A stretch of 64,000 nucleotides of DNA from a virus. Under the pieces are notes generated by a model. The model worked only from the letters and a program-made list of their open reading frames with translations. It was not told where the DNA came from and made no database searches. The position numbers were made by a program, and so were the translations under genes. The stretch is taken from the IMG/VR virus record IMGVR_UViG_3300047331_000009, positions 24,433-88,432 of that record; one strand, 5' to 3'. Of the stretch, positions 20,496-57,448 are shown one piece after another; the stretch's first letter is position 1; the number at the start of each line of letters is the position of its first letter.

Positions 20496-20513
20496 GCGGC
20501 AGAAACCTTGGCC

Positions 20514-21411: not shown

Positions 21412-21541
21412 AATATCAGCCATAAAACCTGGGTCCCGCCGGTTCACGTATTGCGAATTTTATACCAGTTTGGCGAATAACCTCTAGACAATAGGCTTAC
21501 CAAAGTGGTGAGTTGGGCGCCGCCATCTGGGAGCCCGCGCC
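21412..21541. other. Intergenic region upstream of recombination operon
   Basis: No gene is seen. It includes an AT-rich stretch (about 21455-21475) that contrasts with the GC-rich surroundings and is the most likely promoter position for the rightward operon that follows. No clear -35/-10 pair can be assigned. Confidence 0.4.
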
Positions 21542-22158: not shown

Positions 22159-22159
22159 A

Positions 22160-22660
22160 ATGGACGTAATGACCGCCCCACCGCCCGCCCCACCGGTCAC
22201 CCAATCGGCGGATCCCGCGCGCGAGGTCCTGCCCGGCGTGACGGTCAGCGACATGATGGCCGCAATGCGGGTCCTGGCCAGCGAAATCAGCCCGAACGCC
22301 GAGTGCGCCTTCATGGTCATGTACCGCTATGGCGGCAATCACGGTTTACTGACGGTCTATCCGAGTGGCATCGCCGCCGCCAGCGAACGGTGCCACCATT
22401 TCGACGGTTTCAGCTTCCAGGAAACCATCGCCAAGGCCCGCGCGTGGAGCGTTACCTATCTTCAGGAACGCAGCGAAACCCTCATCCGCCGCCTCGCACT
22501 GGCGATTATCGACCTCTACGACGGCGAAGGCCGCGCCACCGTCGAGGCGTTGGCCAAGCGTGATTTCAAACCCGCCGAGATTTTGGAGTTCCGCGACGCC
22601 GCCTGCTTCCGCGCCAGCAGCATGGCCGGGCTCCGCCCCTTCACGGTGGAGGCGGCGTGA
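22160..22660 (+). CDS. Hypothetical phage protein
   Basis: A 166-residue protein. A Pro/Ala-rich N-terminus (TAPPPAPPVTQSADP) is followed by a globular part (NAECAFMVMYRYGGNHGLLT, ERSETLIRRLALAIIDLYDG). The ATG lies one base after the previous stop. It precedes the exonuclease/RecT cassette and may be an accessory protein. No family recognised. Confidence 0.7.
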   Translation: MDVMTAPPPAPPVTQSADPAREVLPGVTVSDMMAAMRVLASEISPNAECAFMVMYRYGGNHGLLTVYPSGIAAASERCHHFDGFSFQETIAKARAWSVTYLQERSETLIRRLALAIIDLYDGEGRATVEALAKRDFKPAEILEFRDAACFRASSMAGLRPFTVEAA

Positions 22661-40485: not shown

Positions 40486-40685
40486 TTGATCCTACCACCA
40501 AACTGGTTCTGCAAAGCGTTTGCCTTGGGCTTTGGTTCGGCTTTAGCGAGTATCGCAAAGAGCGCAAGCGAAGGCGCATAGAAGCCGGCATCCCACCCCT
40601 TGCACAGCGATTGGGATGGCTGGCCGCCCGATTATGCTGGTCACTGGCGGTTATCGCCCGGTCGAATCGTCATCGTCGGGATTGA
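40479..40685 (+). CDS. Possible small membrane protein
   Basis: A 68-codon frame (MPLDPTTKLVLQSVCLGLWF) with one short hydrophobic segment and a very basic tail (RKERKRRRIEAG). It overlaps the divergent HELVE gene by 7 bp and the convergent lysozyme-like gene by 45 bp. Plausible as a small membrane protein, but not certain. Confidence 0.45.
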   Translation: MPLDPTTKLVLQSVCLGLWFGFSEYRKERKRRRIEAGIPPLAQRLGWLAARLCWSLAVIARSNRHRRD

Positions 40686-43394
40686 CCCGCCGGTGGAATA
40701 GGCGCCAGCCCCGGCGGCGCCGCCCTGGCCGATAGCGCGCAGTGCGTTCGATACGCCCTGCCGCTTCCAGCCGGGTTGTTCCAACAGCCTGTTCATGATC
40801 ATGTTTTCGATGCCGGTTGCCCTTTTGCTATAGGGCAGCGACGCGCCCAAGCCGGCAGCGGTACCCCAAAGGATGCGCGCAATCACAGCCGACGGGTCGT
40901 TGGCGAACGCATTTGCCGAAGCCGCGCCGAGCCCGCCCAGCATAGCGGCGCGGCCGGCGGTTCCGCTGTCTCCCACCTTGCTGGGCAGCACTTCGCGTCC
41001 CGCCCTGGCAAGGTCCTGCATCTCTTCCTCGCCCCTGCGATACGATGCCTTATCCTTCGATCGGGTAAGAGAAAGGATCGCGTCATCCAACTGTGCCGGG
41101 CTGAACGCGCCATCAGGCTGCGCGTTCGTGCCTTTGGTCGCACGCTGGACGATCTTGAACTTGTGCCATCCGTCGTCGATCCGGTCCTTGGCTTCCTGCA
41201 TGGTCTTATTATGCGTCGCCATCATGTCGTCCAACGCCTTGTCAGCATCACGCAGATACCGCGCCTGCTGCTGCTGGTAGACGTTGCCGAGCCTCAGCGG
41301 CTTGATGATTTCGTCCAGCCGCGTGCCGATGTTCTGCGCCTGTTCACCGGTAATGCGCCCGTTTCCGTCGAATTTGTCGAGGATCTCGGTCTGGATCGTG
41401 TGGCGCAATTCCGCCACTTGGTCGGGTGGCAGCTTTTTGCTGATCGCATCGTTGACCACCCCGTTAAGGTTCCGCACGAACGTCGGATCACGAATTCCGG
41501 TCATGTTCGGGATAACGAGGTTGTAGGCGGCCTTGAATTGCTGCTCGGCCCATTTGATTGCGTCGAAGCCTGCATCCAGTCCGGGTGGCAGTTTGGTGCC
41601 GATGGAAGCCAATGCCCGATTGATTGCCGCCCGATTGAACGTTTGCAGGCTGCGCTGGCGCGCGGCGGCAATGGCCGATCCGGCAATCACCGTCGACGTT
41701 GCCTTGTCTTCGATGTTCTTCAGCCAGCCGCCCGCCATCTGGCCTGGTGTCAGTTCAACGCCCTCGCGCATCAGCTTGCGCGTCGCGGCGGTCAGTGTGG
41801 GCGCTGCCGCGCGCGATGCGAGGTCGCCAAGACCGCCAGCAAGGGTGCTGACGGCGGCCCCCTTGAGAACCTGCCCGCCCTTGTCTCGCCAGTAATCTTT
41901 GTCGCCAGTGGGTTCCAGCGCGCCGCCGACACCGCCAGCCACGCCGGCTTTCAGTGCGTTGCGCGCCACCCGGCTGCCGATCTTGCCGATGAGCTTGCCG
42001 GCAACCAACTCCGTGCCAAGGCCGGGAATGAGCATGCCACCCGCAAAATCGCCTATGCCGGTGGCCCAGGGATGCGCCTTTTCGTCCGCCTCCATGGCTT
42101 TGTCGATGGCTTGGTCCTGGCCAGCAGCCCAATCGTACAAGGATTTCCCGGCCTGCCCAACCGCGCCGCGCTGCGGCTCCTGGCCGGTGACAAGCCCGCT
42201 GAGGTTTTGCTGCGGCGGCGAAAAATAGTCGCCAACCGCCTGTATTCCCTTGCCTGCCAGTTCCAGCGCACCAAGCCCCTCGCGCGCAACACCCGCGCCA
42301 GCACCCTTGGCCGCCGAGACGGCCGCGCTGTCGGGTTCCTCGGGCGGCGCATATTTGGCGTAGGGGTCTTGTTCCCCCGCTCCGCCCTGTTCACCAGCCC
42401 CTTGGCCGGGCGGCGTGTATTTCGCATATGGGTCGTCTTCCGCCGCCTCCGCACGCGGGATGATCGCATCGCCGATGCTCTGCATCATCGATCGCGGCTT
42501 CTCAGCCTTCGGCGCCTCGACCTTGGGAAAGGCGTTCGGCAGGATCTTGCCTTGCTGGCCAACCAGTTCAGTCGGTTCACCCTTGCCGTTCTTCTGGATC
42601 GCCACCGGGATCGCATCCACGCCGGCATGCTTGGCCAGCAACGCCCGATGCCGCCCGTCCTGGTCGGTCACCGTGCCGGTGTTGCCATCCACATCGACAT
42701 CCAGCGTCGGGATGGCCTCGATCGGCTCGCCCCGGTCCACCGACGACAACAGCGACCGCCCCGCCGGGTTGGAAAACGGCCGTCCCCCCAGCACCGGCGA
42801 AAGGTCGAGGTAATCGTCCGGCGACATCATCACCACGTCGGTGTTCGGCCGCTTGGCATACTCCGCCATCGCATAGGGCGAAAACCGGAAGTCCGGCGTC
42901 TCCGTCTTCGGCGGACGCTCGGCCCACAGCACCGATTTCGGCCGCTCGAACACCCGCTTGAAACTGTCCTCGGCATCCGCTCGGTTGGTGGTGTTTTGCA
43001 GCTTTTCCCGCAATTTCGGGTAATCGCGCTTCAACTCGTTGTCGGCGAACTCGAACTGGGTGTCAGGGTCGGTCGGCTTCGTGCCGCGCTCCTTGGCGAA
43101 CGCCTCCAACGCCTTCCGCCGCTCGCCCTCATGCTGGAACAGCCCGATCGCCGCCCCACCCGGTCCGATCGCGGTGGGGTCGCCGCTGGATTCGCGGGTC
43201 ATGTTGTCGGCCATCCCGCGCGCCCCGGCGTCGGAATAGCCCCGGTCCTTCCATTTCTGGACCATATCGCCGTACGACAGCTTGCCGCCGTCCCAGCCTT
43301 TGGCTTTCGGGTCGGTTCCGCCCTGGCCTTCCTGCCTGGACCGAGGCCGGATGGTCATGGTCGGAATGTCGGTGTCGCTGTCGGCCATGCTCAT
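40641..43394 (-). CDS. Ejection protein with lysozyme-like domain
   Basis: A 917-residue virion protein. The N-terminus carries a phage lysozyme-like domain (residues about 41-120): ARGMADNMTRESSGDPTAIG, with Glu68 as likely catalytic residue, and AAIGLFQHEGERRKALEAF. Residues about 160-260 contain a ParB-like/polyvalent segment (VVMMSPDDYLDLSPV, TDQDGRHRALLAKHAG). Ala/Gly-rich helices follow. IPTMTIRP occurs at residues 10-17 and again near the C-terminus. The start overlaps the giant gene's stop as ATGA. It probably enters the periplasm to open peptidoglycan. Confidence 0.75.
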   Translation of the reverse strand: MSMADSDTDIPTMTIRPRSRQEGQGGTDPKAKGWDGGKLSYGDMVQKWKDRGYSDAGARGMADNMTRESSGDPTAIGPGGAAIGLFQHEGERRKALEAFAKERGTKPTDPDTQFEFADNELKRDYPKLREKLQNTTNRADAEDSFKRVFERPKSVLWAERPPKTETPDFRFSPYAMAEYAKRPNTDVVMMSPDDYLDLSPVLGGRPFSNPAGRSLLSSVDRGEPIEAIPTLDVDVDGNTGTVTDQDGRHRALLAKHAGVDAIPVAIQKNGKGEPTELVGQQGKILPNAFPKVEAPKAEKPRSMMQSIGDAIIPRAEAAEDDPYAKYTPPGQGAGEQGGAGEQDPYAKYAPPEEPDSAAVSAAKGAGAGVAREGLGALELAGKGIQAVGDYFSPPQQNLSGLVTGQEPQRGAVGQAGKSLYDWAAGQDQAIDKAMEADEKAHPWATGIGDFAGGMLIPGLGTELVAGKLIGKIGSRVARNALKAGVAGGVGGALEPTGDKDYWRDKGGQVLKGAAVSTLAGGLGDLASRAAAPTLTAATRKLMREGVELTPGQMAGGWLKNIEDKATSTVIAGSAIAAARQRSLQTFNRAAINRALASIGTKLPPGLDAGFDAIKWAEQQFKAAYNLVIPNMTGIRDPTFVRNLNGVVNDAISKKLPPDQVAELRHTIQTEILDKFDGNGRITGEQAQNIGTRLDEIIKPLRLGNVYQQQQARYLRDADKALDDMMATHNKTMQEAKDRIDDGWHKFKIVQRATKGTNAQPDGAFSPAQLDDAILSLTRSKDKASYRRGEEEMQDLARAGREVLPSKVGDSGTAGRAAMLGGLGAASANAFANDPSAVIARILWGTAAGLGASLPYSKRATGIENMIMNRLLEQPGWKRQGVSNALRAIGQGGAAGAGAYSTGGSIPTMTIRPGDNRQ

Positions 43395-46300
43395 TGCCTC
43401 AAAGCGTTGCGGGACGGCGATTTCGGTATGCTGCGGCTTATCGCAGCCAGGGCGTTCGGCGCCTCCGCAAGCCCGCCAGGCTTCGACGCCCTGCCAGCCA
43501 TCCACGCCAGCGCGTTGCGGATCATATCGCTGCCGGCTACCTCTTGCGCTGCCGCATCTGCGCGGCTTGGTTGATCGGCCGGCGTTGCGACATCGGCTTG
43601 TCCTTGTCCTCCAGATAGCCCCTTACCTCGGCCACCATCCGCTTTACGTCCGGGTCCGGATCCGCCTCGTACTGGTCGAGGAAGGCTTGCAACTCGCTCT
43701 TCGGGGCGAACTCGTCGGGTGGATCGATCAATCTGCCGCTTATCATAGCCCAGGTCTTTCAATGTCTGCTCGACAGCCAGCTTGATAGCGGGCGGCAGTT
43801 CACGGGTGGACACATAGTTGGTGATCCCTTCCGCATCCAGCAGCCGGTTGGTGACTTCGGCGCGGAACTGGCCCGCTACTTCTTCGCTCACGTCGCCGGC
43901 GGTAACCCGCTTGCGCAGCAATTGCCGAGCGGTTGCATCCGCCCGGTCGTATGCCTCGCCCAATGTCTTGGCGTTCGCTGCCACCTCATCAGCGGTCCGC
44001 ACGAACCCGGCGTTGGCACCCAGCGAGGCGATCGAGGTCGATCCGTCATGCCCATGCACGACCATATGGCTGACGCCCGGATTTGCCATGTAGACGATAT
44101 CCGGCCGTGACTGCCCGGTGTTGTTGGGGTGGTTGTGGTGCAGCGTGACGCTGTTGTTCGTCCTGGCGATGTTGGCGTGCGGAAAATCGACTTCGCGGCG
44201 CTGATTGTTGGTCCCGGCATGCACAATCCGCCCGGTCGCATTGTCCACCACCGCGATGTGCTCGTGGTGGGTTTCGATGCCCTTCTGCCGGGTCCAGTCG
44301 CCAGCCTCGCCATGGCCTTGCTCCGGCGCCTCGAACAGCAGGTCGGTGAAGTTCATCCCGCCGTCGGGCCATGGCGAAACCCGTTTGCTTGCCGCTTGGC
44401 GCTTCGTCAGCGCCGCAACATCGGCCGCCGCAACCTTGTCACGCGCCGTTCTCAGGCGGGCGAGTTCGTCCGGCGTGAAGTGCTTGCCGGTGTAGCTGTC
44501 GATATCCACGCTGGCGCGGCCGATGCCTTCCTTGGCCGGCACGTAGATACGCTTGCCATTGAGCGAATGGCCCCGGATCAGAGCGAGGCCCTTATTCTCC
44601 CAGGCGACGGTCCCGCCGATGTCTCCGGCCAGCGGCGTCGCCCATGTCTGTTTCGTATCCGCACCACCCGGCTTGCGCTCGAACAGCGCCATCCCCTCAG
44701 TCTGCACCGCGTCGCGCAACGCCGGCGTGATGTCGAAGGAATGGACGGTAGCAAAGGCTTTGCTACGGTCTCCCACCGATGACGATTGCCCACGGTTGAG
44801 TGCCTCGTAAGCATCAGCCTCCGGTCCACCTCGGACCTCGCTCCGCCCGACCTTGGCACCGTATTTCCCGACGATCTTCTGCACCGTCCTGGGCAGAATG
44901 TCGTCGTAGAAGCCGGTCATGCCCTCGCCGCCGACTTTCAGATCAAGGCCGCGAAGCGTTCGCCTGATACTGCTGGCCTGCGTGATTTTGTCGCCCTCGG
45001 GATTTCGCGCCAGCAGTTTGTCCGCCGCCGCCTTGCCGATTATGTCGGGCAACTCAGCCGTTTTGGCGTAGCGGTTAATCACCGCAAAGCCGTCCTGATC
45101 GAACGCCTTGAAATTTCCGCCCTCGGGGTTGTTGGGGCTTTGGTCATATTCGACGCGGCTGATATGCTTGGACAGGTTATACCGGTCCGCGTGCAGCTCC
45201 CCCGGCGACCACGCCACACGGTCAAAGCCGTTATCCACGGCGAATTTGATCATCCGCTTCATCACCAGCGCCGGCCACGTGGTCTTGAACGGCGCGTTGG
45301 GGACGCGATCGCCCTGATACGGCCTTTGTGCCCGGTCAGCCTCCAATTCGTTCAGGCGGTCAATCGTGTCAGCAACCGCTGCGTCCTGGGTCTGGAAGGC
45401 GCTCGACGTCATGTGCCGGCCATCGGGGTCCGTCACGAGAAAGCCGGTCGGGAACTTGATGACGCTATAGCCCGCCGGTAGCGATGTGATTTTTTCCGGG
45501 ACGGGTGGCGGCTCAATATACCCTTCCCTCCGCCCTTTCTGGTGCCAGTCGCTTTGCACCTCATGGACCATCAGCACCCGCGCGCCGTCCGGGGCGGTGA
45601 ACTCGTCAATACGGGCATGAGCAACGACATTCGGTTCGTGCCAGTGTCCTGAAAGGTAGTCGCCGCCCTGCTGACGGTCTTTCGCGCGATGCACAGGAAC
45701 ACCGTAGTGCTCCGCGCTTTCTCTGCTGTCCCACAATGTTGGCGCGCCTGGGTTCGGCGTCGTGGGGCCTTGCGTGATAAACGAACCGTTGCCGCGCTGA
45801 ATGGCAAATCCCGTGCCTGAAGGGTGAGGTACTACATTGTAGACTTGCCGTTCGGCACTCGGCGGCAGTGTGAACACCACCTCGCGGTAATTCGGCGTGG
45901 CCTGGAACGGCTTCAGCCAAGAGGCGTATTTCGGCGGTTCTTTTGTCGATTGCTCTAAGGCATCCCAAAACCTGTCAAGCAGATCATCCGATCCGCCCTT
46001 GTCAGCAATGTCCCTTGACGAGATTTCGCCAAGCTCTTTCTTGATCCCAAGCGCACGAAGTTCCGGCTCCAGCGCCAGCAAGGCGGCACGGGCTTCGGCG
46101 CCACCCTTGTGCACCTCCCGCACATCCAGCCGGTTGGCCGCCACGAAATCCTGGATCTGCTGCTTGGTCACCGACGGCTGGCCTTTCAGCCAGTCATCCA
46201 GACCCATCCATTCAATCTCTTCCGGCTTCACGCCCGGCGCCTTGGTGATCTGCGCCAGCATCTGCTGACCGGTCCCCTTGGCCTGCTTCAGCCCGTCCGC

Positions 46301-49300
46301 CGCCCGCTGCACCGCCGAGTAGAGCGGCACCGATATGCCACCGCTGTCCTCGGCCAGCCCGCCGCGCGGCAGCCCGCGCACCGGCCGGTCCGCATCATCG
46401 GCGCCGCGATCCATGTTGAAATCGAGGCCGCGCGTCGGCGAGAACGCGCTCGCCGGCACCGGCTTGGCCGTAGCATCAAGCGCCGCCCTGTTCGCCTCGC
46501 GCGAAAGGTAATCGTCGCGTGCTTGACCTAGCCGCTCCCACTCTTGGGGCTTGAAGCCCCTCGGCGTCATCATGCCGATGTGGTTGCGGCCCGGTTCCGC
46601 AGGCATGCCCTTTTTGAACCCCACAAACGTGGTCTCGTCCGGTCCCCACAGGTTTGTGGTGCCCTTGATCAGCGCGAGGTCTCGGTTGTGCCAGACCAGT
46701 TCGCCGTGCCAGACATACGGGTCGCCCTCGGACACCCCTCTGGTCGCTTCCAGATGCGGCTTGACCCAGTCCGGCGCTTCCCGCGACACCACTTGCGGCG
46801 GCTCGTGAACCGTGAAAATCCGCAGCCCGTTGGCGTCCATCGCCGCGAGGTAGGGCACCTCGCCCTCGTCGGTGACCAGGAAATAGTCGTCGGCCACCCG
46901 ATGCCCACGCACCGTGCGGGGCTCCCCGTCCACGTAAATGTCGGTATCCATCGGCGCGCCGTTGCGCAGCCATGACGGCGGCGGGTTTGGATTGGTCTGT
47001 AAATCGTCTTCCAGCGCGGCAAGCTGCTGGCGCACTTTGGTCAGCTTTTCCTGCTGCGGGAAATCCTGTTTGCCAGCCGCTTCCAGCGCGGGGATCGACG
47101 CAATCTTCTCGGCGGCCTCAGTCGCCCAGGATTGTTGTTTTTGGCGCCGTTGGTTCAGTTCATTGGCGATGCGCAGCACCGTCAATCCGGTCACCCAGTC
47201 TACAAACTGCCCGCTCGGGGGGTCGTAGATCTCGATGCGCGGCGCCTCGTTCAAGTTGAACGGGCTGCTCCAGTTACCGACGATATCAAAACCGCCGACT
47301 GTCGCGAGTTTCCGCTTCTCGCCCCTGGCGACCTGGGCGATCGCCTTGTCAAGCGCATCCTGAAGATCGCTGCCGGTATCAAACCAGCGCCCGGTGGACC
47401 TGGCGCTTTCAATCGCCGCCTGCGCCCGGTCTTTGGCGCCAATCAGCCGGTCAAGGCGCCGTTCAACGTGACCGAACGGCTTGCCTTCGTCCTTTAAATC
47501 TTGAAGCCCCTTCCGCGCCTTGGAGATTTGATCGTCCAAACCGGCGATCTTGGTGTCCAGGTCAGCGATTTTGGCCGCCGCCTGGGCCTCGTCGCCGTCA
47601 ATCTCATACCACTTGCGGTCGTCTCCATCGGCCTCGGCCGCCTTCGCCGCACGGTCAACCGATGCTTCCCAGCGATCGGCGTAACGGCCTTGCTCGGCCG
47701 CCTGCTGCTGCAAACGCTCGCCGCTCACCCGCCGATCGCGGGCAAGCTGGATCGCCTCGGCCTGACCTCGCGTGTGCAACCGCTCGCGGCGCTGCAAACG
47801 GTCCACATCGGCCTTGTATTTCGCCCGGATCATAATTCTCGGGTCGCCGGCAGCGGCCGACAAGGTTTTCGAGAAGTCCTCCTCCTCCGCCATATCCGCC
47901 GCATCGCCCTCGATATTGCCGATGCGCTTGCCGCTGGTGTCGTTGAACGCGGCGATGAACGCCTTGATGAACTTGTCTTTGACCTGAAGAACCTGCCAGC
48001 GGCGGCCGTCGATGCCTTCGGTCACGTAGCGGTATTCGTATGCCATGTTCCAGGTGTTGCCCTGGCGGTTCATGCGGCCGTTGCGCTGTTCCAGATCACC
48101 CGGACGCCATGGCGCGTCAAAGTGGTGAATGGCGCGCAACCGCTGCTGCATGTTGACGCCAACGCCCAGCGTGCCGCTCTGGCCGATGGCAATCCGGTAC
48201 TTGCCGGAGTTCATGCCGTCGGCGATCTCTTTCTTCTTCTCCGCTTTCATCCCGCCGGCGACGACGGCGATTTGGTCACGCGGGATGCCGCCCTCGACCA
48301 GCTTCTTGATCAGTTCATCGACCACAACGAAGCGGCTGGCCCGCCCCTCGGACGATTTCACCGGATTGAACCCGCGATCGAGGAAGATCGCCTGCGCCGC
48401 GTCCGGCTCGCCGTAGTGACGCAGCACGTTGCGCACGATGCGGTTGATCTTGCTGTCTTCGGTGTCCGGCGCGTCCGGGTTGTACAGCCTGGGATCGATG
48501 CCGGTGTTGGCGGAGTTGGTCTCGATGCGGATCGGCACCCGCTCGTCACCCTGCTGCATCCACTCCTTTTTCTGCTTCCCGTCAGCGGCCTTAAACTCGC
48601 GGGCCAGTTCACGCAGTTCGTCGAGGATCTCCACCTGGGCGGGCGACATCTCGCCCACGTCGGTGACCACCTTGATGTAGGGGCGCCCCTCCGGCTTCAG
48701 GGTCCGGCCGTTCATCAGGAAATTAAGCTCTTCCGGCGTCAGATCCGGCGATGTCAGGGTCTTGCCCGACGGTGTCGGCCGTGGCTTGAATTCGGGCATG
48801 TCCTTGGCCTGGACGACATCAACGAACTCCGACATCTGGCGCACCAGTTCATCGACGTTGTTGAATGCCGCGAGCCGTTTCACGGGCTCAATCTCGCCGG
48901 TGCTGGTCAGTTCGATGTCGTTGGTCGCGTCGGCGAAGGTGTTGAACCAGGCATCCCACTCCTTGATGCCGGCTTCCTCCATCCGGTCATCCATGAAGTA
49001 GCGAGCCATGTTGAAGATTTCGTTCAACGTGTTGGTCACAGGCGTCCCGGTGAACAGGAACACGCCCTTCCCGGCGTTGTTGGCCTTGACGTATTTGGTC
49101 AGGAAATCAAGCGCGATGGAGCGGTCGCTGGCCTTCTTGTTCAGCCCGCGCATCTTCATCGCCGTGGCGAACGGCGGCTTTTTGAACTCGTGCGCTTCGT
49201 CCACCAAAATGGCGTCGATGCCCAGTTGCTCAAACGGCACGGCGTCCTCTTGCGAGGCGCGGTTGGCCTGTTTCTCGATGTTGTTCAGAAGCGTCTGTAT

Positions 49301-52300
49301 CTGCCGGACAACATCCTTCGCGGTCGGGCTGCGCAGGCGCCCCATCGCCTTCTTGTCCGTTTTGGACGCTTCGATCAGGCTGTAAATCTCTTCCGGCGTC
49401 AGCGTAATGTCATCCTCGGCCGCCGCCTCGATCGCGGCGTTTTCCAGTTCCGCGATTTGTTCCGCCGCCAATGCCATCAGCGTCGGCTTGGTCAGCGCCA
49501 TGCGGTCAATCAGGCTGTGCGGCATGATCACCGCATCCCAGTCCTCGTTGGCGATGCGGCGCAGGCTGGTGGCGATCTCGTCCGGCTTTAGCTGGCTGAT
49601 GTAGAAGAATTTGCCGCCCGGGTACATGTCCTGGAACTCTTGGGCGACGGCGGCGCTGTTGGCGTTGTGCGCGAACACCACGGGCTTGCGGAATTTGCCG
49701 TAGCGGCGCCCTTCAACCGCGACGCCAGCCATGGTGTAGCTTTTGCCGGTGCCGACCTCATGGGCAAACAGTCCGCGCCCGAGCACCACGGCGCGCCAGA
49801 TGGCGTTGATCTGATGCCGGCGCAGCGAAAACGGGTCGTTGCCCCGGCGCAGCGCCATCCCCGACAGATCCATGAACGATCCGTCAAAGTGTGGTTTGGC
49901 GATGGCGTTCATCGACTCGTTGAAGGCTTGTTCGAAAGCCAGCTTGCGTTCCGGGTCTGACCACGCCCAGTCGGTGAACTTGTCTTTGAGATCCTGGACT
50001 TTGGCGTTGACTTCCTCGGTCGCCTTCTCGTCAAGGTGATCGTTGCCGTCGGCGTCTTTATAGGTGAGTCTGATGGACCGGTTGCCCATCGCCGCCATCA
50101 TCAACTGGTTGAACGGGTAATCTTCGTGCCCGTGGACAGTCCTGGCCTCAGCCTTGCGGTTTATGGAACGGTCATTGAACCGCACCTTCCAGCGGCTCCC
50201 GGCGAACCGGACATCCACGGCCGCGCGCTGATCGGGGGTCAGAGCCAACAGGTCGCCGATAAAGGCCCGGTATGCGTCGTCACCCACCCAGGTCGCACCC
50301 AGCTTCGCCTCGATGTTGTAATAGGGCGTGTCGGGCGGCAAAACCTTGGTCAGCGCGTCGATCGACGGCTGCATTTTGGCGTCGCCAGCGGCCAGCGCGT
50401 CCTTGGCCTCACGCAGCTTGCGCCGGACGTTGCCTGACAGATAATCGTCGGTCGCCTGAAAACCGCCGCCCGGCGTTCGCAGGATGGCGCCCTGGTCGAG
50501 CAACACATCCTCAACCGCGTTGCGCGGCTTGCCGGTCAGTTCGGCCACGCGGTCGAGGTCGAAATTTGCCTGCTCGTTGCGCGCCAGGACAAATGCGTCG
50601 GCGATCGAGGGGTTTTCCAGGTTCCGCCTCGAACGCACCGTCGGCTCGGTCAGAATGGGCGAAGGCGTCCCGTCCGGCCGTTCCAGCGATTCAACCGCCG
50701 AACGCGCCGGGTCCTTCATGCGGTCGAGCACACGCAAGCCGTCAGATTTACCGATCGGACCGTGCGCGGCGCGGAACTGGTCGTACTGCGCCTTCAGCGA
50801 CTTGCGCAGCGTGTCGGCTTCCGGCTTGCCGTCACGTTCGGCGTCGATCAGCGCGCCATACGTCTTGCGCATCCCGATCATGCGGCGAACCTGATCTTCG
50901 CGCGCCTTCACCACCTTGGCCGAACCCGTGGTCATCCCGCTTTTCAGGTCGTCAAGCCGAGCCAGCCGCTCGCCCTGAACCTGATAAAGATGGCCGTCGT
51001 CAGCGATGACGATGTTGCCCTGCCGGTCCTTCGTGTTGTTGATCAGAAAGCGCGGCTCGCGTCCGCGCATCACGGGCTGGTAGGCGTCCGTTGGCAGCGT
51101 CGCCGGCAGCGCTTGCAGCCGTTCCTCCAGGTCGTCGGGGCGATGCACGATCATTCCCGGCCGCCCCGAAGTGGTGCCGTGGCCCCAATCGAGGGTGCCA
51201 AGCACGTTCTGCGGGTGATCCTGGAAGTACTGGTTCACCCTTATGTCGCCATGCTCGGTGCTCATCTCGGTGGCATCGATCCACGGCTCATCGACGGCAT
51301 TGGCCAGCGGTTCCGCCCGCTTCTGCAAGATGATGATGTCGGCGACAACGTTGGTGCCGGCGTAATCCTTGAACGCACCGGACGGCAGGCGGAACGCAGC
51401 AATCAGCTTGCCTTTCTTCGCCATTTCCAGCCTAGCGGCGCGGCCAACGCTGTCCATTGTGCCGTTGCTGGTGATGCCGACCACGAGCCCGCCCGGCCGG
51501 ACCTGATCAAGCGCCTTGAGGAAAAAGTAATTGTGCAAGGCCGGTGAAAGCCTGTCATAGCGCCGGTCGGGCGGGCTTTGCTGCGCGAACGGCCAGTTGC
51601 CGATGACCAGATCATAGAAATTGTCGGCGGTTTTGCTTTCCTCGTAGCCTTTCACATGGATACCAGCGTGCGGATACAGCAGCTTCGCCATTTCGCCGGT
51701 GGTCTTCTCCTTCTCGATGCCGGTCAGATCGCTTTGACCCATCAGGTCGCGCGGCATCATGCCGAAGAAGTTGCCGACACCCATGGACGGTTCCAGCACC
51801 CGCCCGCCCCTGAAGCCCATGTGGCGAACCATGTCCCACATCGCGGCGACGGTAGGCGGGTCGGTGTAATGGGCGTTGCGGATGGAGTCGCGGGCACTTT
51901 CCCACGCCTCTCTGCCCAGGTGCTCACGCAGCCAGCGGCCTTCTTCCTCCCATCCCTCGCGGTAGGGTTGGCGTTCGAAACTGCCCTGGAAAACTTCCTG
52001 ACCGAACGATCCCCAGCCGATGAACCCGGCCATGGTCTCCAGTTCTTCCTGGGTCGGATCGCGGCCTTCCGCCTGGATGTCTTCAAGCGCCCTTAAAGCG
52101 GCGCGGTTGCGGGCGAAACGCTGCTTCGGCCCGGATCCGCCGATTATTCGCTTGGGGTCGTCAATGTGGAAATTGGGTCGGGTGACGGCTGGGTTTGCGG
52201 TTCGTCCTCCGGCTCCATCAGGCACCACTCCCGTGTCGCCTGTTCCTCCGCGTCCGGTGGCGGCATCCCCGCCGCTATGTACTGCTGGCGTGCCTCCCAC

Positions 52301-55300
52301 CTCTTCTGATCCAGGACGAACGCCAGCTTCTCCGCCATCCCCGCTGCGTCCAGTCGGTGCAGCATTTTCGGTCGAACCTGGCTCCAGTGGCGCAGAAGGT
52401 CGGTTTCCCTTGGGCTTCCGGGTGCCAGACCGCGATGGGCGAGATCCGCCACCTGCTGCTTGATCCACGCCGCTGTTTTCGGTTCGATCGCCATCTTCGG
52501 CCTCCGGGGTCTCCGATATGGCGTTTTCGCCCGGCGTTTGCAAATCAGGTGTGGGTGCGGCGGCGGGCTGATCCGCTGGTGTGTAGAATATGTCGCCAAA
52601 TAGCTTTTTGTGGTCGCGCGCCAGCCGCCCAAGAAGCGCGTCAAATGCAGCGAGCATCCCGGCTGCGTTCTCGCGGTTCTTCGCCAGCGGCACCTTCTCG
52701 CTAAACCCCATAAAGCCCGCATAGAACGGGTCGCTCACAAGCAAATCGTCAACGTCTGTCCCGTGCTTCCCGGCGGTTTGCAGGAGTGCAAAGATAGCGT
52801 CGCGCGCCTCATTACCGGCCCGCGCGAGCGTCGTCGTGTTGGGCGTCCCCATCGCGTCGCGCAGCGCTGTTACCTGGGCGTCGGCTGCGGCTACGGCTTG
52901 AGCGATCTCAACCGCTGCTTGCGTCATTTGCCTAGGCAGGCTGATCTTCCGGCCTGATGGCAAGACGACTTCAACGCGGTCGGTCCCAGTCGCGGCGGGT
53001 GCAGCGGCGCCGTCGAACAGATCGGCTTGCGCCTCGATCGCGGCGACCTCGCCCTGGAACTGCCGGGCGCCATCGACCGGGAACGTCTCGCGCATGTACT
53101 GCACCATCACCGGCGCGTCGTTGTAAGTGGCGCGGGCGGCAATGTATTGCGCGACGGCGGTTTTTTGCGCCGGCGTCAGCGGATAGCGGATCGACACATC
53201 GAGCGCATTGGGGTCGTCTTCGGGCGCCATCCCAAGCTGGGCGGCATGCGTCTCATCGACGAAATCGGTGACCGACGGCTTCATCTGCTCGTCATCCAGC
53301 GCATGCACAATGTCGCTGTGCGTCTGGTTTTCCGATCCAGCAATCATGCTGCCGTCCGGCAGGGCGAACCGCGCGTCCAGAATATCCCTTGTGTCGGGCG
53401 CCGGGTCGAACAATTCCGCCCGTTCCAGGTCTTCGGGAGTGATAATGCGCGTGGGCTTTGGTGGCGTTTTGGCATCTGCGCCGGGCGCAGGCTGTGCGGC
53501 GTTCCGCAGCCTCTGGTATTGCTCTGCGACGGCCTCCGGTGTGAGGTTGCCCGGCATCCCGCGCCGGATTTCAGCCGCCACCTCTGGGCGGCCCTGTGCC
53601 GTCCATAGATCGGCGATATGGTTCATCTGCTGCGCCAGCGATTCTTGTGCAGCACTCGGCAGCGCCGATGGCGCATTTGAAGTTCCGGCTCGCGCTTTGG
53701 TGTCGGTTTTTGGCGTCGGCGAGGGCGTCGGTGTCCAATCCGGGTTGTCGGTCGCACCGCGCGTATAGGTCAGCAGCTTCTCACGCTGCGCCGGCGTCAG
53801 ATTGTTCGCATCCGCCAGGGCGTTGAACATCTCGCTGGCCTTGGCCTGCCCCTGATCGCGCAGCGTGTCGGCGATCTTCACAGACCAGTCGTGCGATGCC
53901 GGATGGGTGTCGTCCTGGCTGGGCGGTTCGGGCGCTGGTGCGGGCTTCGCTTGCGGCGTCTCGGTGGGCGGCTTCTGCCCGTCCGGGTGCATGTGGATGT
54001 AGCCGCCCGGCCTGAACAGCCGTTTGCCGCGTTCGAACGCCGCCTTGCGCCCCTGCGGTGTCTGGCTTCTGGCATCGTTGGCGGCACCGATCGCCTCGTG
54101 CAACTGCGCCTGGCGCAGAAACTCCGTCAGCGAGAGATCGCCGTAGCGCCGTTCCCGGTAAGCCGGATCGAGGTCGTCCAGCGTCATCTTCCATTCGGGC
54201 TTGGCGGGCGGTTCTTCTGGCTTGGCGGCCGGTTTCGCGGCGGGCGCCTCGGTTTTTGATTCCGGCTTCGCCCCTGGCTTGGCGCGCTTGATCGTTGCTC
54301 CCTCGCCCATCTTCCGCTCGCCAGTGGCGTCGAAATAAGGGCGAGGGGCGAGGACGCTTTCGAGGTCTTCTGGGCGATAGGATACTTCTTTGCCGTTGTC
54401 CCATCGGACGTCGATCATATTCCCCTGTTCCGGCTTATTCCTGTGCACGGCGCCGACATAGGTGACGGTGAATGTGTCTCCTTGGTCGGTCGTTACGTGA
54501 TCCCCATCGCGCAACGTATCAGCCACGAGTTTGGAGTCCGGATTTTCGTGAAACTTCTGGCCGGGTTTAAGTTTGGTCGGCGGCGCTTCGTCATCAGCGT
54601 TGGCCTTCTTCGCCTCTTTTGCCTCCAGTTCGAAATCCGGGATTTTCAAGTTGTGCTTGGTGGCGAACGCCTTGATCGGCGCTACCGCCGCTTTGATTTC
54701 CGCCCGGTTGGGAAAAATCGTCCTGCCGCGCTTGTCAAAGTAGTTTGCAAAGCGCGGGTCAGCCTGTTGGATCAATCCCATCAGGGTTTCGGCGACCTTG
54801 CCGCCCCAATGCGGCCAGCCGTCTGAGTTGCGGTTGACCGCATCCCGATACTCGCCGAGCCAGCGTGTCGTCGGTCCCAACAACGGGTCATCGCGCCAGC
54901 GGTCGATTGCTTCGTCGATTTCGGGTTCGTTCATCCAGTAAGACGGCCGCTCTGCCCCGGTGCGCGGTGGGCGTTGCTCTGCCGCAATCTCTGTTGCGGT
55001 CGGCGGTCTTTTCGCGGTTTCACGTTTGGGCTTCACCGCCGGTTCGGCGGCTTCGCCGGCGGGCTCGCCGTTAAACGATAAATCATCCGGGGATTTATCG
55101 GTCTTGACATTCTCCGCCGCTTGCTCTGCGGCTTTTTCGTCCTCGTGCTTCTGCACCGCCGTCCCGAGCCCGACACCATCCTCGGCCTGGATTTGCTCGA
55201 CCGGCCGCGCCTTCGGCACCTCGGCTTCAGGCTCACTTTCGGGGGTTTCACCCTTGGTTTCGCCCTTGGTTTTCCCCTTGGTTTTGCCCTCGGCAGGCTC

Positions 55301-57448
55301 GACCACCTTCAGCCGCTCGTTGTCGTCATCCGAACCGTCCGCCGCACCCAGCCACGGCACGCCGGCATCGAACGTCGCCATCCGGCCTTTCGGGTTGCGG
55401 TAAACCGTCTCGCCTTCAGCGTTCTTTCCGGCCGTTTCCCACGGGCCTTCATGCGCGCTCTTCAGGTCTTCGGGCGGCGGCTCGCCGTCGGGCGGTATGA
55501 CCGCTGGCGGGGTTTCCGCTGCCAGCTTCTCCGCCTCATGGGTCTGCACCGCCGTGCCGAGCGGAACGCCGTCTTCCGCCTGGATTTCGCTGACGGTGCG
55601 CGGTTGCGGCTTTTCAGGAGCACCAGCCGGGAGATCAGCGCCGGCCCCAGCGGTTTCTCCGCCGGCCGCCGCCGTCGGCCCGGACTTTCCGGGGCCTTGC
55701 TGCCCGGCGTTTTCGGTTGGCGGCGGGGTGTTCGTACTATCGGGTCCTGCCGGTTCATCAGCAGTTGGCGCAGCCGTGACCTCGCGGGTATCAACCACTG
55801 ATCCGGGGTGCACGAGCGTATAAGCGCCCGCTGCCTGGTCAACGACATAAATCCCGTCCGGCCGGACGCCGACGAGCGTGCCGGTCGCGTATTCGCCCCG
55901 GTTCTGGTCAAAGAAGGTGACGCGGGTGCTCTTTTCCGGCTCGGCTTGCGGTTTCGCCTTTTCTGGTTCGTCGGGCACGAACTCTTCCGGCTTGGCTTGC
56001 TCCAGTGCCGGCGCTGGCGTTTCGGATGCCGCAGGTGGCGGCGCCGGTTCGTCCAGCGTCGCCGGTCCAAGCGGTTGCTCGGCCTTTGGCGCATCTTCCG
56101 TGCGCGGGTCATAGCCGTGCTTTCTCTTGAAATCGCGCCACATATCATCGAGTTCGGACGCCGCGCCGCCCGGTCCGCCCGATGGCGGCGGCGATGGACC
56201 GCCATCAGGTCCGGCCGTCGGTCCTCCGCCAACAGGCGGCGGCTCAACACGCGGTTTCGGCCCGGCTGGCGGTTCGGTCGCGGCGGGAAAACGTCCGCCA
56301 CGCATCGCCGGGAACAGCGCCGGAGCCAGCGCAAAGGTGGCCGCGCCGACATCCGCGCGTTGCTGTGGATTGGTGATGTCGAACTGGAGCGGGCTGATGC
56401 CAAGACCGCGCAGGATTTGGCGGCCCCATTCCGGCTGATGTCCCCATTCGACCGCGCCGGTCTGCTGGTTCGTCGCATAGGGCAGCACTTGGCCATACGT
56501 GTATCCTGGCTTGTCCGCAAAGCCGGTCCGCCAGTCTTCCCCCATGTTTTTCAGCCAATTGGCGCCAAACTGCGGAATATCCAGCGGGTTTGCGGTTTGC
56601 ATGCCGGGAGGCAATTGACCGGTTTTCGGGTCCATCTGCCCGATACCCAACTCATCGAGCGGTGGCATGGTCTGCGCTGCGGCAGGCTGTCCGGCACCGC
56701 TCGCGGCGGCTGGCTGCGGCGCACCGCCTGTATCGATCGGATTGCCCAGATCATCCACCGGTGGCACCGCCGGGCTTGCCGCGCCCGGCTGCGCTGCGCT
56801 ACCGTCCTCTTCGGGTACCAGCCAGTCATTTGCGCCCGCGCCAGTTCCCGGATTTGCCCGCGCTTGCCCCGTGGGCGGATCCGGGACGAACTGATCACCC
56901 GCCGGCGCATCCGGGACAAACGCATCGGCGTTCTGGTCTGGCCGCTTGGCCCGGTCCCGATCGTCGAAAAGCACCTTTCCGTCTAGGCCAACAAGCTGGT
57001 CCTTGGCGTTCCACTTCGGCGCCTTGGCCGGGTCCGCCCACTGGCTTTCATTCGAGAACGTCTCGTGAAACGGCGTTTTCCACCAGTCCGGGTAGTGCGG
57101 CTTGCCGTCATTCGGATCGACCTTGGTTCCGGCCGGTTCGACGTCCTCGGGTATCTTCCCCTCGGTCTGTAGCTTCTTCCAGGTTTTCGGGTCCTGCGAG
57201 GCTTTCCAGTAGCCGCGCATGTCGTAATCGGCCTGCGGGCTGTCATCGTTGGGGATATCGTTGGCTTTCACCCACGCCTGGAACTTCTTTTCCTCGGCCG
57301 GTGACAGCGTGGTGGTGAAATCTCTCGCGCCGGGCTTGGTCCACGCCTTGTTGCGCTCGAACGCCGCCTTGGCGCGGCGGCCTTCCTCGGGGTCATCGTC
57401 AGCGGCGACAGCCCAATCATCGGGGAGGTTTTGCTGGTCAAGCGGCAT
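43391..57448 (-). CDS. Giant polyvalent protein: methyltransferase, SNF2 helicase and JAMM-like motif
   Basis: A single 4,685-residue reading frame. The N-terminus (HETFSNESQWA near residue 130) looks like an internal virion protein. Residues about 500-1700 are low-complexity, with a repeated IQAEDGV-x-LGTAVQ unit. A methyltransferase-like domain has VLEPSMGVGNFFG (about 1883) and DLVIGNWPFA (about 1945). A SNF2 helicase has EVGTGKSYT (about 2563), LVDEAHEF (about 2747), FTGTPVTN (about 2800) and QRNGRMNRQGN (about 3122). Polyvalent-protein blocks follow (LYSAVQRAADGL, about 3703; HEVQSDWHQKGR, about 3970). A JAMM-like HHNHPNNTGQSRPD is at about 4437. It is probably ejected with DNA to block restriction (DarB-like). 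TAATG and ATGA overlaps flank it. Confidence 0.85.
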   Translation of the reverse strand: MPLDQQNLPDDWAVAADDDPEEGRRAKAAFERNKAWTKPGARDFTTTLSPAEEKKFQAWVKANDIPNDDSPQADYDMRGYWKASQDPKTWKKLQTEGKIPEDVEPAGTKVDPNDGKPHYPDWWKTPFHETFSNESQWADPAKAPKWNAKDQLVGLDGKVLFDDRDRAKRPDQNADAFVPDAPAGDQFVPDPPTGQARANPGTGAGANDWLVPEEDGSAAQPGAASPAVPPVDDLGNPIDTGGAPQPAAASGAGQPAAAQTMPPLDELGIGQMDPKTGQLPPGMQTANPLDIPQFGANWLKNMGEDWRTGFADKPGYTYGQVLPYATNQQTGAVEWGHQPEWGRQILRGLGISPLQFDITNPQQRADVGAATFALAPALFPAMRGGRFPAATEPPAGPKPRVEPPPVGGGPTAGPDGGPSPPPSGGPGGAASELDDMWRDFKRKHGYDPRTEDAPKAEQPLGPATLDEPAPPPAASETPAPALEQAKPEEFVPDEPEKAKPQAEPEKSTRVTFFDQNRGEYATGTLVGVRPDGIYVVDQAAGAYTLVHPGSVVDTREVTAAPTADEPAGPDSTNTPPPTENAGQQGPGKSGPTAAAGGETAGAGADLPAGAPEKPQPRTVSEIQAEDGVPLGTAVQTHEAEKLAAETPPAVIPPDGEPPPEDLKSAHEGPWETAGKNAEGETVYRNPKGRMATFDAGVPWLGAADGSDDDNERLKVVEPAEGKTKGKTKGETKGETPESEPEAEVPKARPVEQIQAEDGVGLGTAVQKHEDEKAAEQAAENVKTDKSPDDLSFNGEPAGEAAEPAVKPKRETAKRPPTATEIAAEQRPPRTGAERPSYWMNEPEIDEAIDRWRDDPLLGPTTRWLGEYRDAVNRNSDGWPHWGGKVAETLMGLIQQADPRFANYFDKRGRTIFPNRAEIKAAVAPIKAFATKHNLKIPDFELEAKEAKKANADDEAPPTKLKPGQKFHENPDSKLVADTLRDGDHVTTDQGDTFTVTYVGAVHRNKPEQGNMIDVRWDNGKEVSYRPEDLESVLAPRPYFDATGERKMGEGATIKRAKPGAKPESKTEAPAAKPAAKPEEPPAKPEWKMTLDDLDPAYRERRYGDLSLTEFLRQAQLHEAIGAANDARSQTPQGRKAAFERGKRLFRPGGYIHMHPDGQKPPTETPQAKPAPAPEPPSQDDTHPASHDWSVKIADTLRDQGQAKASEMFNALADANNLTPAQREKLLTYTRGATDNPDWTPTPSPTPKTDTKARAGTSNAPSALPSAAQESLAQQMNHIADLWTAQGRPEVAAEIRRGMPGNLTPEAVAEQYQRLRNAAQPAPGADAKTPPKPTRIITPEDLERAELFDPAPDTRDILDARFALPDGSMIAGSENQTHSDIVHALDDEQMKPSVTDFVDETHAAQLGMAPEDDPNALDVSIRYPLTPAQKTAVAQYIAARATYNDAPVMVQYMRETFPVDGARQFQGEVAAIEAQADLFDGAAAPAATGTDRVEVVLPSGRKISLPRQMTQAAVEIAQAVAAADAQVTALRDAMGTPNTTTLARAGNEARDAIFALLQTAGKHGTDVDDLLVSDPFYAGFMGFSEKVPLAKNRENAAGMLAAFDALLGRLARDHKKLFGDIFYTPADQPAAAPTPDLQTPGENAISETPEAEDGDRTENSGVDQAAGGGSRPSRSGTRKPKGNRPSAPLEPGSTENAAPTGRSGDGGEAGVRPGSEEVGGTPAVHSGGDAATGRGGTGDTGVVPDGAGGRTANPAVTRPNFHIDDPKRIIGGSGPKQRFARNRAALRALEDIQAEGRDPTQEELETMAGFIGWGSFGQEVFQGSFERQPYREGWEEEGRWLREHLGREAWESARDSIRNAHYTDPPTVAAMWDMVRHMGFRGGRVLEPSMGVGNFFGMMPRDLMGQSDLTGIEKEKTTGEMAKLLYPHAGIHVKGYEESKTADNFYDLVIGNWPFAQQSPPDRRYDRLSPALHNYFFLKALDQVRPGGLVVGITSNGTMDSVGRAARLEMAKKGKLIAAFRLPSGAFKDYAGTNVVADIIILQKRAEPLANAVDEPWIDATEMSTEHGDIRVNQYFQDHPQNVLGTLDWGHGTTSGRPGMIVHRPDDLEERLQALPATLPTDAYQPVMRGREPRFLINNTKDRQGNIVIADDGHLYQVQGERLARLDDLKSGMTTGSAKVVKAREDQVRRMIGMRKTYGALIDAERDGKPEADTLRKSLKAQYDQFRAAHGPIGKSDGLRVLDRMKDPARSAVESLERPDGTPSPILTEPTVRSRRNLENPSIADAFVLARNEQANFDLDRVAELTGKPRNAVEDVLLDQGAILRTPGGGFQATDDYLSGNVRRKLREAKDALAAGDAKMQPSIDALTKVLPPDTPYYNIEAKLGATWVGDDAYRAFIGDLLALTPDQRAAVDVRFAGSRWKVRFNDRSINRKAEARTVHGHEDYPFNQLMMAAMGNRSIRLTYKDADGNDHLDEKATEEVNAKVQDLKDKFTDWAWSDPERKLAFEQAFNESMNAIAKPHFDGSFMDLSGMALRRGNDPFSLRRHQINAIWRAVVLGRGLFAHEVGTGKSYTMAGVAVEGRRYGKFRKPVVFAHNANSAAVAQEFQDMYPGGKFFYISQLKPDEIATSLRRIANEDWDAVIMPHSLIDRMALTKPTLMALAAEQIAELENAAIEAAAEDDITLTPEEIYSLIEASKTDKKAMGRLRSPTAKDVVRQIQTLLNNIEKQANRASQEDAVPFEQLGIDAILVDEAHEFKKPPFATAMKMRGLNKKASDRSIALDFLTKYVKANNAGKGVFLFTGTPVTNTLNEIFNMARYFMDDRMEEAGIKEWDAWFNTFADATNDIELTSTGEIEPVKRLAAFNNVDELVRQMSEFVDVVQAKDMPEFKPRPTPSGKTLTSPDLTPEELNFLMNGRTLKPEGRPYIKVVTDVGEMSPAQVEILDELRELAREFKAADGKQKKEWMQQGDERVPIRIETNSANTGIDPRLYNPDAPDTEDSKINRIVRNVLRHYGEPDAAQAIFLDRGFNPVKSSEGRASRFVVVDELIKKLVEGGIPRDQIAVVAGGMKAEKKKEIADGMNSGKYRIAIGQSGTLGVGVNMQQRLRAIHHFDAPWRPGDLEQRNGRMNRQGNTWNMAYEYRYVTEGIDGRRWQVLQVKDKFIKAFIAAFNDTSGKRIGNIEGDAADMAEEEDFSKTLSAAAGDPRIMIRAKYKADVDRLQRRERLHTRGQAEAIQLARDRRVSGERLQQQAAEQGRYADRWEASVDRAAKAAEADGDDRKWYEIDGDEAQAAAKIADLDTKIAGLDDQISKARKGLQDLKDEGKPFGHVERRLDRLIGAKDRAQAAIESARSTGRWFDTGSDLQDALDKAIAQVARGEKRKLATVGGFDIVGNWSSPFNLNEAPRIEIYDPPSGQFVDWVTGLTVLRIANELNQRRQKQQSWATEAAEKIASIPALEAAGKQDFPQQEKLTKVRQQLAALEDDLQTNPNPPPSWLRNGAPMDTDIYVDGEPRTVRGHRVADDYFLVTDEGEVPYLAAMDANGLRIFTVHEPPQVVSREAPDWVKPHLEATRGVSEGDPYVWHGELVWHNRDLALIKGTTNLWGPDETTFVGFKKGMPAEPGRNHIGMMTPRGFKPQEWERLGQARDDYLSREANRAALDATAKPVPASAFSPTRGLDFNMDRGADDADRPVRGLPRGGLAEDSGGISVPLYSAVQRAADGLKQAKGTGQQMLAQITKAPGVKPEEIEWMGLDDWLKGQPSVTKQQIQDFVAANRLDVREVHKGGAEARAALLALEPELRALGIKKELGEISSRDIADKGGSDDLLDRFWDALEQSTKEPPKYASWLKPFQATPNYREVVFTLPPSAERQVYNVVPHPSGTGFAIQRGNGSFITQGPTTPNPGAPTLWDSRESAEHYGVPVHRAKDRQQGGDYLSGHWHEPNVVAHARIDEFTAPDGARVLMVHEVQSDWHQKGRREGYIEPPPVPEKITSLPAGYSVIKFPTGFLVTDPDGRHMTSSAFQTQDAAVADTIDRLNELEADRAQRPYQGDRVPNAPFKTTWPALVMKRMIKFAVDNGFDRVAWSPGELHADRYNLSKHISRVEYDQSPNNPEGGNFKAFDQDGFAVINRYAKTAELPDIIGKAAADKLLARNPEGDKITQASSIRRTLRGLDLKVGGEGMTGFYDDILPRTVQKIVGKYGAKVGRSEVRGGPEADAYEALNRGQSSSVGDRSKAFATVHSFDITPALRDAVQTEGMALFERKPGGADTKQTWATPLAGDIGGTVAWENKGLALIRGHSLNGKRIYVPAKEGIGRASVDIDSYTGKHFTPDELARLRTARDKVAAADVAALTKRQAASKRVSPWPDGGMNFTDLLFEAPEQGHGEAGDWTRQKGIETHHEHIAVVDNATGRIVHAGTNNQRREVDFPHANIARTNNSVTLHHNHPNNTGQSRPDIVYMANPGVSHMVVHGHDGSTSIASLGANAGFVRTADEVAANAKTLGEAYDRADATARQLLRKRVTAGDVSEEVAGQFRAEVTNRLLDAEGITNYVSTRELPPAIKLAVEQTLKDLGYDKRQIDRSTRRVRPEERVASLPRPVRGGSGPGRKADGGRGKGLSGGQGQADVATPADQPSRADAAAQEVAGSDMIRNALAWMAGRASKPGGLAEAPNALAAISRSIPKSPSRNALRQ

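Follow-up and report, generated by a model that had tools for sequence, protein, structure and literature searches.

Within the 64,000-nucleotide stretch analysed here (the window, part of the 88,432-bp IMG/VR virus record IMGVR_UViG_3300047331_000009), one giant gene of a podovirus whose portal is P22-like probably encodes a DarB-like polyvalent ejection protein that would give cis protection to the incoming DNA. Similar giants, equally large, have been described before; new here is the protein's own set of side domains, an unusual set of wings. What stands out from sequence comparison is a near-constant core with exchanged wings, together with a lineage bearing the methylase motif NWPF that appears worth following. 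The gene and the parts of its core, in amino acid (aa) numbering where given, are as follows.

43391-57448, minus strand: the giant gene, predicted DarB-like polyvalent protein of 4,685 aa with an ATG start
51869-52153, minus strand: LPD36-like region (limits approximate) with a GWGS (GXGU) motif at aa 1811, from alignment and the motif definition in PMC5512222
51179-51877, minus strand: putative gamma-class N6-adenine methylase domain (limits approximate), from PHROGs and motif alignment
47939-49831, minus strand: predicted SNF2-type motor (limits approximate), from motif alignment and profile searches

The homology of the protein to DarB-like giants is overwhelming: aa 1668-3253 match the PHROGs family phrog_10089 ('DarB-like antirestriction') with 1421 bits, and the likeness to DarB suggested in a preliminary description of this DNA is thereby borne out. 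A tblastn search with aa 1650-3260 matched the core in 110 of 50,697 phage records, 51 of which cover at least 80% of the query; every match lies below 60% identity, the best among those listed being to Pseudomonas phages USP_18 and USP_25 (46.9%). We aligned the core with those of its closest relative (L014, see below), USP_18, 8P, JC1, Pavtok, POI1126, SopranoGao, Atu_ph08, Y7 and P1 DarB, and found that, some substitutions apart, the LPD36 GXGU motif, YTxP, methylase motifs I and IV and the SNF2 set (Walker A through motif VI) line up in order. The methylase stretches start at aa 1858 (NAHYTDPP), 1884 (VLEPSMGVGNFFG) and 1948 (VIGNWPFAQ), and the SNF2 stretches at aa 2561 (Walker A), 2747 (DEAH), 2798 (TGTP), 3097 and 3121 (QRNGRMNRQG), so that the motif alignment also upholds the earlier call of a methyltransferase-like domain joined to a complete SNF2 helicase. 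A PDB profile search gave weak matches to SNF2 proteins and one type I methyltransferase subunit, along with some unrelated rows. These core features are those by which Iyer et al. (2017; PMC5512222) define the methylase-helicase dyad, and on motif content we read aa 1700-3260 as a DarB-type dyad, with the LPD36 GXGU and TP motifs of DarB-like proteins present. The giant further resembles the polyvalent proteins of those authors in being multi-domain and in lying in a late module, and a large polypeptide (often of more than 2,000 aa) of disparate activities fits its predicted methylase, SNF2 motor and JAMM motif. It differs in that no LPD or PolyVal Pfam domain, common but not required in polyvalent proteins, matches any of ten scanned segments at E<=1, whereas such domains are present in many wings of its relatives. 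An assignment to defence systems (DISARM DrmD, BREX BrxH and others) was considered and rejected: the matches fall nearly all at the helicase C-terminal stretch (about aa 3040-3171), with one weak methylase match, and the NCBIfam scores are far below their cut-offs.

The whole protein (510.5 kDa, computed pI 5.5) is read from one frame on the minus strand, a strand that the preliminary description had left unnamed when it reported a single uninterrupted frame of about 14 kb. There is no internal stop over 4,685 codons. Chance is excluded as the source of such a frame because log10 P of meeting no stop is -55.8 at the GC content of the window and 20 mononucleotide-shuffled versions of the window (three frames, one strand) had no open stretch longer than 415 codons. 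The gene takes up 14,058 of the window's 64,000 bp (22%) and about 16% of the virus record, whose two ends share 127 identical bases, which suggests that the record is complete (circular or terminally redundant). An open reading frame (ORF) of 696 aa on the opposite strand within the conserved core (47501-49591) was set aside as a by-product of high GC. Scanning IMG/VR with the core alignment found 67 sister loci, 48 of them with a complete ORF (1,896-7,100 codons from stop to stop, median 4,743.5), so the size of the giant is ordinary among its relatives. One locus (L070) is the L014 contig and is left out of the sister counts (n=47), in which three pairs share identical last 300 residues. 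An assembly error fusing separate genes, named in the preliminary description as one of two things that would refute its account, is practically excluded. Nothing in the window record favours it, although the giant of Sinorhizobium phage PBC5 does stand on record split in two overlapping frames. The core lies within one frame in the independent phage L014 and in 46 of the 47 other complete sister ORFs, and codon-position GC bias follows a coding pattern throughout the frame, with its peak in the core and its low point in the final 185 codons.

The constancy of the core is most evident when it is set against the wings. Residues aa 1901-3200 are common to 46 of the 47 sister ORFs, the exception being L094 (1,896 codons), whereas aa 1-190 recur in one (L078), parts of aa 3696-4272 in five (L033, L055, L072, L074 and L079, two of them duplicates) and the linker (aa 201-1600) in none at E<=1e-5. 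The closest relative, a 4,349-aa giant on the 86.5-kb IMG/VR contig 3300035189_000033 (L014), is 93% identical over the core. By region, identity and the ratio of nonsynonymous to synonymous substitution rates (dN/dS) are 93.7% and 0.087 for the methylase, 95.3% and 0.089 for the motor, and 89.4% and 0.241 for aa 2190-2520 between them; the core is under purifying selection. The L014 giant shares the C-wing and JAMM parts (see below) and has homologous neighbours, but it is shorter, lacks the N-terminal domain, carries the linker cassettes in another order and has its lysozyme gene about 970 bp away. The giant is unlikely to serve chiefly as a structural ejection protein contributing to the conduit, with an enzymatic core of lesser importance: although its position among ejection genes and an N-terminal piece common to a protein of podovirus Tunturi_3 would suit such a role, conservation is highest in the core, and the wings vary almost freely. 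In a Pfam scan of wings from the 48 complete ORFs, narrowed by a size limit and by the removal of duplicates to 32 N-wings and 30 C-wings, the N-wings held InPase (14), ddrB-ParB (3) and SLT (3), and the C-wings held LPD39 (14), ART-PolyVal (8) and LPD3 (6); Pfam finds none of these six in the window giant. The string PLxRFG is likewise missing from it and occurs in 25 of the 47 sister ORFs.

Wings can also occur with another core. A 2,592-codon ORF (L020, 3618-11393) has the linker cassette (aa 505-721), the C-wing and the JAMM parts at 36-47% identity, yields no match to the methylase-motor core and carries an ART-PolyVal domain (Pfam E=2.7e-17). This case represents one phage, L021 being the same figures from another assembly. 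A ParB-like domain suspected there by eye was dropped, as Pfam leaves it unnamed at E<=1 and names ART-PolyVal instead. One may tentatively picture a swappable delivery chassis, in which short N-terminal duplicated motifs would be address tags for packing or ejection, the wings exchangeable payloads able to accompany different cores (the methylase-motor in the window, a predicted ADP-ribosyltransferase in L020), and a single virion slot re-armed by cassette exchange; we hold this picture to be doubtful. The constant core with exchanged wings offers a natural comparison set for telling address from payload, and for asking whether NWPF enzymes methylate at all.

The methylase motif IV of the giant reads NWPF, against an NPP(Y/F) consensus; P1 DarB has NVPF. 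Among 66 sister loci (without L070), 54 have NWPF, two NYPF and one NVPF, while nine were unscored, five of which show NWPF with a looser pattern. We also examined 79 giants on genome contigs, drawn from the best 80 of 165 loci of a genome scan. At 45% identity or more, NWPF is found in 10 of 11 (one unscored), and below 45% in none of 68, where the motif is NPPF (26), NVPF (11), NPPY (3) or NIPY (1), with 27 unscored. NWPF thus marks a lineage. The doubtful chassis picture would add that the altered active site fixed in it may point to different chemistry, or to an anti-restriction motor that works by steric means alone. No publication titles on this lineage appeared in title-level literature listings, and a literature search for the strings QSDWH and GNWPF returned nothing related. 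It is possible, though we would not call it probable, that the giant acts by occupancy and not by methylation, the methylase being a relic that binds DNA or S-adenosylmethionine and the SNF2 motor sweeping restriction complexes off. The frequency of NWPF in the sister loci and in the genome giants at 45% identity or more is in keeping with this, as is the NVPF of P1 DarB itself. A relic would need less than is retained here, however: motif I and YTxP are kept, the dN/dS of the methylase is low (0.087) and the N, P and F of motif IV remain.

That the giant would be delivered by the virion, as the preferred reading of an ejected DarB-like protein has it, is suggested by its neighbours, which are these.

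59553-60176, minus strand: 207-aa 'DNA ejection' protein (phrog_598, E=2.1e-11)
57448-59553, minus strand: 701-aa gene directly upstream, with a 1-bp overlap; homologues lie upstream of the L014 and L078 giants
40641-43394, minus strand: 917-aa downstream gene with a 4-bp overlap and an N-terminal Phage_lysozyme2 match (E=2.8e-22)

The overlaps of 1-4 bp reported earlier are confirmed as TAATG (1 bp) with the upstream gene and ATGA (4 bp) with the downstream gene, given a downstream start at the ATG at 43394. The placement between ejection-protein genes also stands, with the phrog_598 protein upstream and, downstream, a lysozyme-domain protein; two records match its aa 518-810, the first under the name DNA ejection protein, the second as a lytic transglycosylase. 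Homologues of all four genes (207-aa ejection protein, 701-aa protein, giant, 917-aa lysozyme protein) occur in the same order in L014 and L078, and in no other sister locus at E<=1e-4, many of those stretches being short. The giant lies in an ejection cassette among late or virion genes. In the record, PHROGs matches identify portal (phrog_156), scaffold, major head and head-closure proteins. The portal is matched in 227 phage records, several of them P22-like by name among the matches listed, and against Vibrio phage VvAW1 portal and coat give E=4e-125 (38% identical) and E=4e-84 (41% identical). With the head stretch of JC1 we obtained a terminase match (E=5e-26), a portal match at E=0.01 and 18% identity and no coat match, and with that of USP_18 the terminase is the one match to the head genes of the window phage. 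The head genes indicate a podovirus with a P22-like portal and are not of the Bcep22 type.

Precedents for such a protein come from several phages. The 4,515-aa gp69 of JC1 is virion-associated, with 51 unique peptides by mass spectrometry of CsCl-purified virions (PMC9144972), and P1 DarB, which protects DNA in cis against type I restriction (PMC5512222), belongs to the head, where its first 30 residues direct its packing (PMC9024508). These findings make it improbable, a shade more so than a structural role, that the giant acts late in the producing cell and goes undelivered, by modifying DNA before packaging or excluding other phages, even though it sits in the late module and a methylase and motor could operate there. 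The Bcep22-like podovirus giants (JC1 gp69 and those of DC1 and BcepIL02) resemble it in size and in a one-frame methylase-SNF2 core, about 31% identical, and the JC1 giant, found in JC1 virions, is preceded by two virion-associated genes; they differ in having other head genes and no wing matches. An N-terminal transglycosylase is annotated in the DC1 and CSP3 records and can be read by eye in JC1, whereas aa 1-860 of the window giant have no Pfam match better than E=0.9 and the window phage has a lysozyme in the next gene instead. The N-termini of the JC1, Pavtok, SopranoGao and rhizobial giants read by eye as wall hydrolases, and that of Pavtok is so annotated. USP_18 (4,947 aa) has the closest core among the phage-record matches listed (47%), with matches beyond it at aa 3303-3556 only; its giant and that of 8P (5,145 aa, core mostly about 29% identical) overlap an upstream gene of 634 or 652 aa by 1 bp, as in the window. 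VvAW1 has a related portal and coat and shares the order 'DNA ejection' protein, gene, giant, but its DarB-like protein is smaller (3,640 aa), with a core 30% identical and no wing matches. P1 DarB (2,255 aa) likewise has a methylase followed by an SNF2-type motor. Relatives of 3,640-5,007 aa already carry a DarB-like annotation. For the 3,764-aa protein of Serratia phage Parlo, presumed to be homologous to DarB, domain matches to a transglycosylase, a methyltransferase, a helicase and an acyltransferase have been published (PMC6606913).

Several points weigh against this account of an ejected, protective DarB-like giant. Motif IV is NWPF and not NPPF, and methylation by the protein is therefore uncertain. 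P1 DarB, half the size, matches the core by BLAST in only three separate short stretches, and an anti-restriction effect of podoviral giants would be an extrapolation from it. Support for the presence of the giant in virions comes from relatives, and since the head genes differ from those of JC1 (only terminase being clear) and of USP_18, the JC1 proteomics would carry over by analogy. The L014 lysozyme gene does not overlap its giant but begins about 970 bp beyond it. Finally, none of the partners DarA, DdrA, DdrB, Hdf and Ulx was named among 19 proteins scanned with PHROGs and 10 scanned with Pfam; the JC1 report describes such P1 partner proteins as not known in the Lessieviruses either (PMC9144972). 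On balance we still favour the ejected-protein account, under which, to judge from position and relatives, the giant would be produced late, enter the head along with the neighbouring ejection proteins, pass into the cell mostly unfolded, either before the DNA or together with it, and then refold. That such proteins need at least partial unfolding in the conduit is already in print (PMC8402733). By analogy with P1 DarB, the SNF2 motor could then track along the entering double-stranded DNA while the N6-adenine methylase joined to it modifies that DNA or shields it in cis, which would make type I-like restriction enzymes fail; Iyer et al. proposed translocation-coupled methylation of entering DNA (PMC5512222). 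The JAMM and GNAT-like parts might act on host proteins, the phage's own proteins or nucleotides, with JAMM perhaps cutting peptides or nucleic acid. A protein of about 510 kDa that would have to leave via a short tail and then refold is a demanding case on which to test ideas of protein ejection and of anti-restriction that arrives with the DNA.

Some other records of giants deserve mention. The 5,007-aa gp27 of Pavtok was called the longest known phage protein in 2021 (PMC8402733). The annotated 8P protein is also longer, and single frames of 7,100 (L079), 6,423 (L033) and at least 6,745 codons (L038, both ends open) exceed it too. In the PBC5 record (L008) the two frames run from 6913 to 13503 and from 12930 to 22709 and are annotated as two DarB-like proteins. 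Pseudomonas phage Itty13 (L009) has a 4,112-codon open frame through its DarB-like match (8598-20933), a stretch for which the record gives three proteins on the other strand.

The remaining parts of the giant, from N- to C-terminus, are these.

56942-57385, minus strand: N-terminal domain (aa 22-169), without counterpart in L014; L078 has it, and a Tunturi_3 protein carries it at its C-terminus
56810-56932, minus strand: short repeats FVPDAP, FVPDPP and WLVPEE (about aa 173-213; repeat test on aa 150-240, p=0.015)
52649-56848, minus strand: variable Pro/Ala-rich linker (aa 201-1600), from comparison with L014 and the 47 sister ORFs
55145-55609, minus strand: linker cassette 1 (aa 614-768); the L014/L070 giant has it at 67% identity, after cassette 2
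54284-54589, minus strand: linker cassette 2 (aa 954-1055); the L014/L070 giant has it at 69% identity, before cassette 1
46769-47881, minus strand: post-helicase region (aa 3190-3560); depending on position, 26 to 40 of the 47 complete sister ORFs match it
44696-46135, minus strand: C-wing module (aa 3772-4251) with an ExQSDW signature and a predicted fold that is tentatively GNAT-like, from alignment and a predicted model
43805-44323, minus strand: predicted JAMM/JAB domain (aa 4376-4548) with E4396, H4438, H4440, S4447 and D4450, from alignment and a predicted model

The internal-virion-like N-terminus proposed in the preliminary description needs qualifying: among the 50,697 phage records the one match is a hypothetical protein of podovirus Tunturi_3 (Tunturi phages: PMC11924767), joined by the IMG/VR giant L078, and nothing beyond these. 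The linker, called low-complexity in the preliminary description, is Pro/Ala-rich and variable, but it also holds the two conserved cassettes. Over aa 201-1640 a single global alignment with L014 gives 36% identity, 410 residues having no L014 partner and 161 being extra in L014.

Repeats near the N-terminus are more evident in sister giants than in the window giant, whose own first 90 residues gave no significant repeat test (p=0.50). We compared 48 giants (the window, L014, USP_18, 8P and 44 sister ORFs read from the first Met; L070, L074, L093 and L094 dropped, the near-duplicate pair L049/L050 kept) and a held-out set of 37 of the 79 genome-contig giants, 42 being omitted for an open 5' end, no early Met, an N-terminus seen before or a core before residue 400. 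A looser duplicated-motif test on the first 90 residues gave p<=0.01 in 16 of 48 giants against one of 48 internal control stretches; the held-out result was weaker (6 of 37 against 1 of 37 controls, p<=0.0083). Duplicated motifs occur, for example, in L033, L037, L041, L054, L077, L079, L083, L095, USP_18 and 8P, and they could serve as packing tags. An exact form, [NDKEQ]P[YWF]xx[YF], drawn up once hits had been seen, was rejected. It occurs 12 times in the first 80 residues (3,840 residues; 7 of 48 giants) against 7 times in 229,799 residues elsewhere, but it did not replicate in the held-out giants (0 in the first 80 residues, 2 in 133,608 elsewhere), and it is not enriched in 129 neighbouring ORFs (1 in 10,320 against 5 in 49,297).

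At the other end, the JAMM-like motif noted earlier holds up, the zinc site E ... HxHP ... S..D being invariant in all 20 sequences aligned over aa 4280-4620 (the window and L014 included, several rows near-duplicates). The structure predicted for this part has a mean predicted local distance difference test score (pLDDT) of 80.4, with no Foldseek match at E<=0.001 and no JAB match in Pfam. VIA-align on this model is headed by JAB/MPN proteins (PfJAMM1, Z 6.1, root-mean-square deviation (rmsd) 3.6, 113 aligned; RadC, Z 4.4, rmsd 3.3, 96 aligned), Z values that by the tool's own note may reflect only a common arrangement. Because of the zinc-site motif and this JAB/MPN-headed list, we take aa 4376-4548 as a predicted JAMM domain. 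A DarB-like core lies in the same ORF as the JAMM part in 16 of the 21 loci found with that part, several of them near-duplicates, and the pairing is therefore not unique.

The C-wing module has no Pfam name. Its model (aa 3690-4290) is of modest confidence (mean pLDDT 66.4) and gave no significant Foldseek match, the top row being MreB (E 0.054) and the first acetyltransferase row standing at E 0.083. When this list is compared by VIA-align, acetyltransferase-type folds come first, namely 6edw (ICL2; Z 10.2, rmsd 3.3, 153 aligned), whose matched domain we take to be GNAT, and AtaT (Z 9.5, rmsd 4.0, 134 aligned). In GNAT proteins the acetyl-CoA loop R/QxxGxG/A stands after strand 4. By eye no clear loop of this kind is present in the C-wing model, where the invariant ExQSD follows the matching strand. 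Every aligned copy has ExQSD, AP and W unchanged, and ExQSD is present in 7 of the 47 sister ORFs and 3 of the 79 genome giants; the module is tentatively GNAT-like in predicted fold. An ORF open at its 3' end (L027, 4647-17144) has about three copies of it.

In the 917-aa neighbour, DPYAKY occurs twice (about aa 317-351), its L078 counterpart having NPYAAF twice. A ParB-like domain suspected by eye at aa 200-320 of this protein was discarded, as it receives no Pfam name at E<=1 and its PDB rows are weak and unrelated. Elsewhere in the record, outside the window, lies a 927-aa protein made mostly of short degenerate repeats (L002, 10074-12857, minus strand), with no PHROGs match at E<=0.01. 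Adjoining the ejection cassette within the window, 37939-39216 (minus strand) matches GARS_C, a purine synthesis domain (E=3.5e-12).

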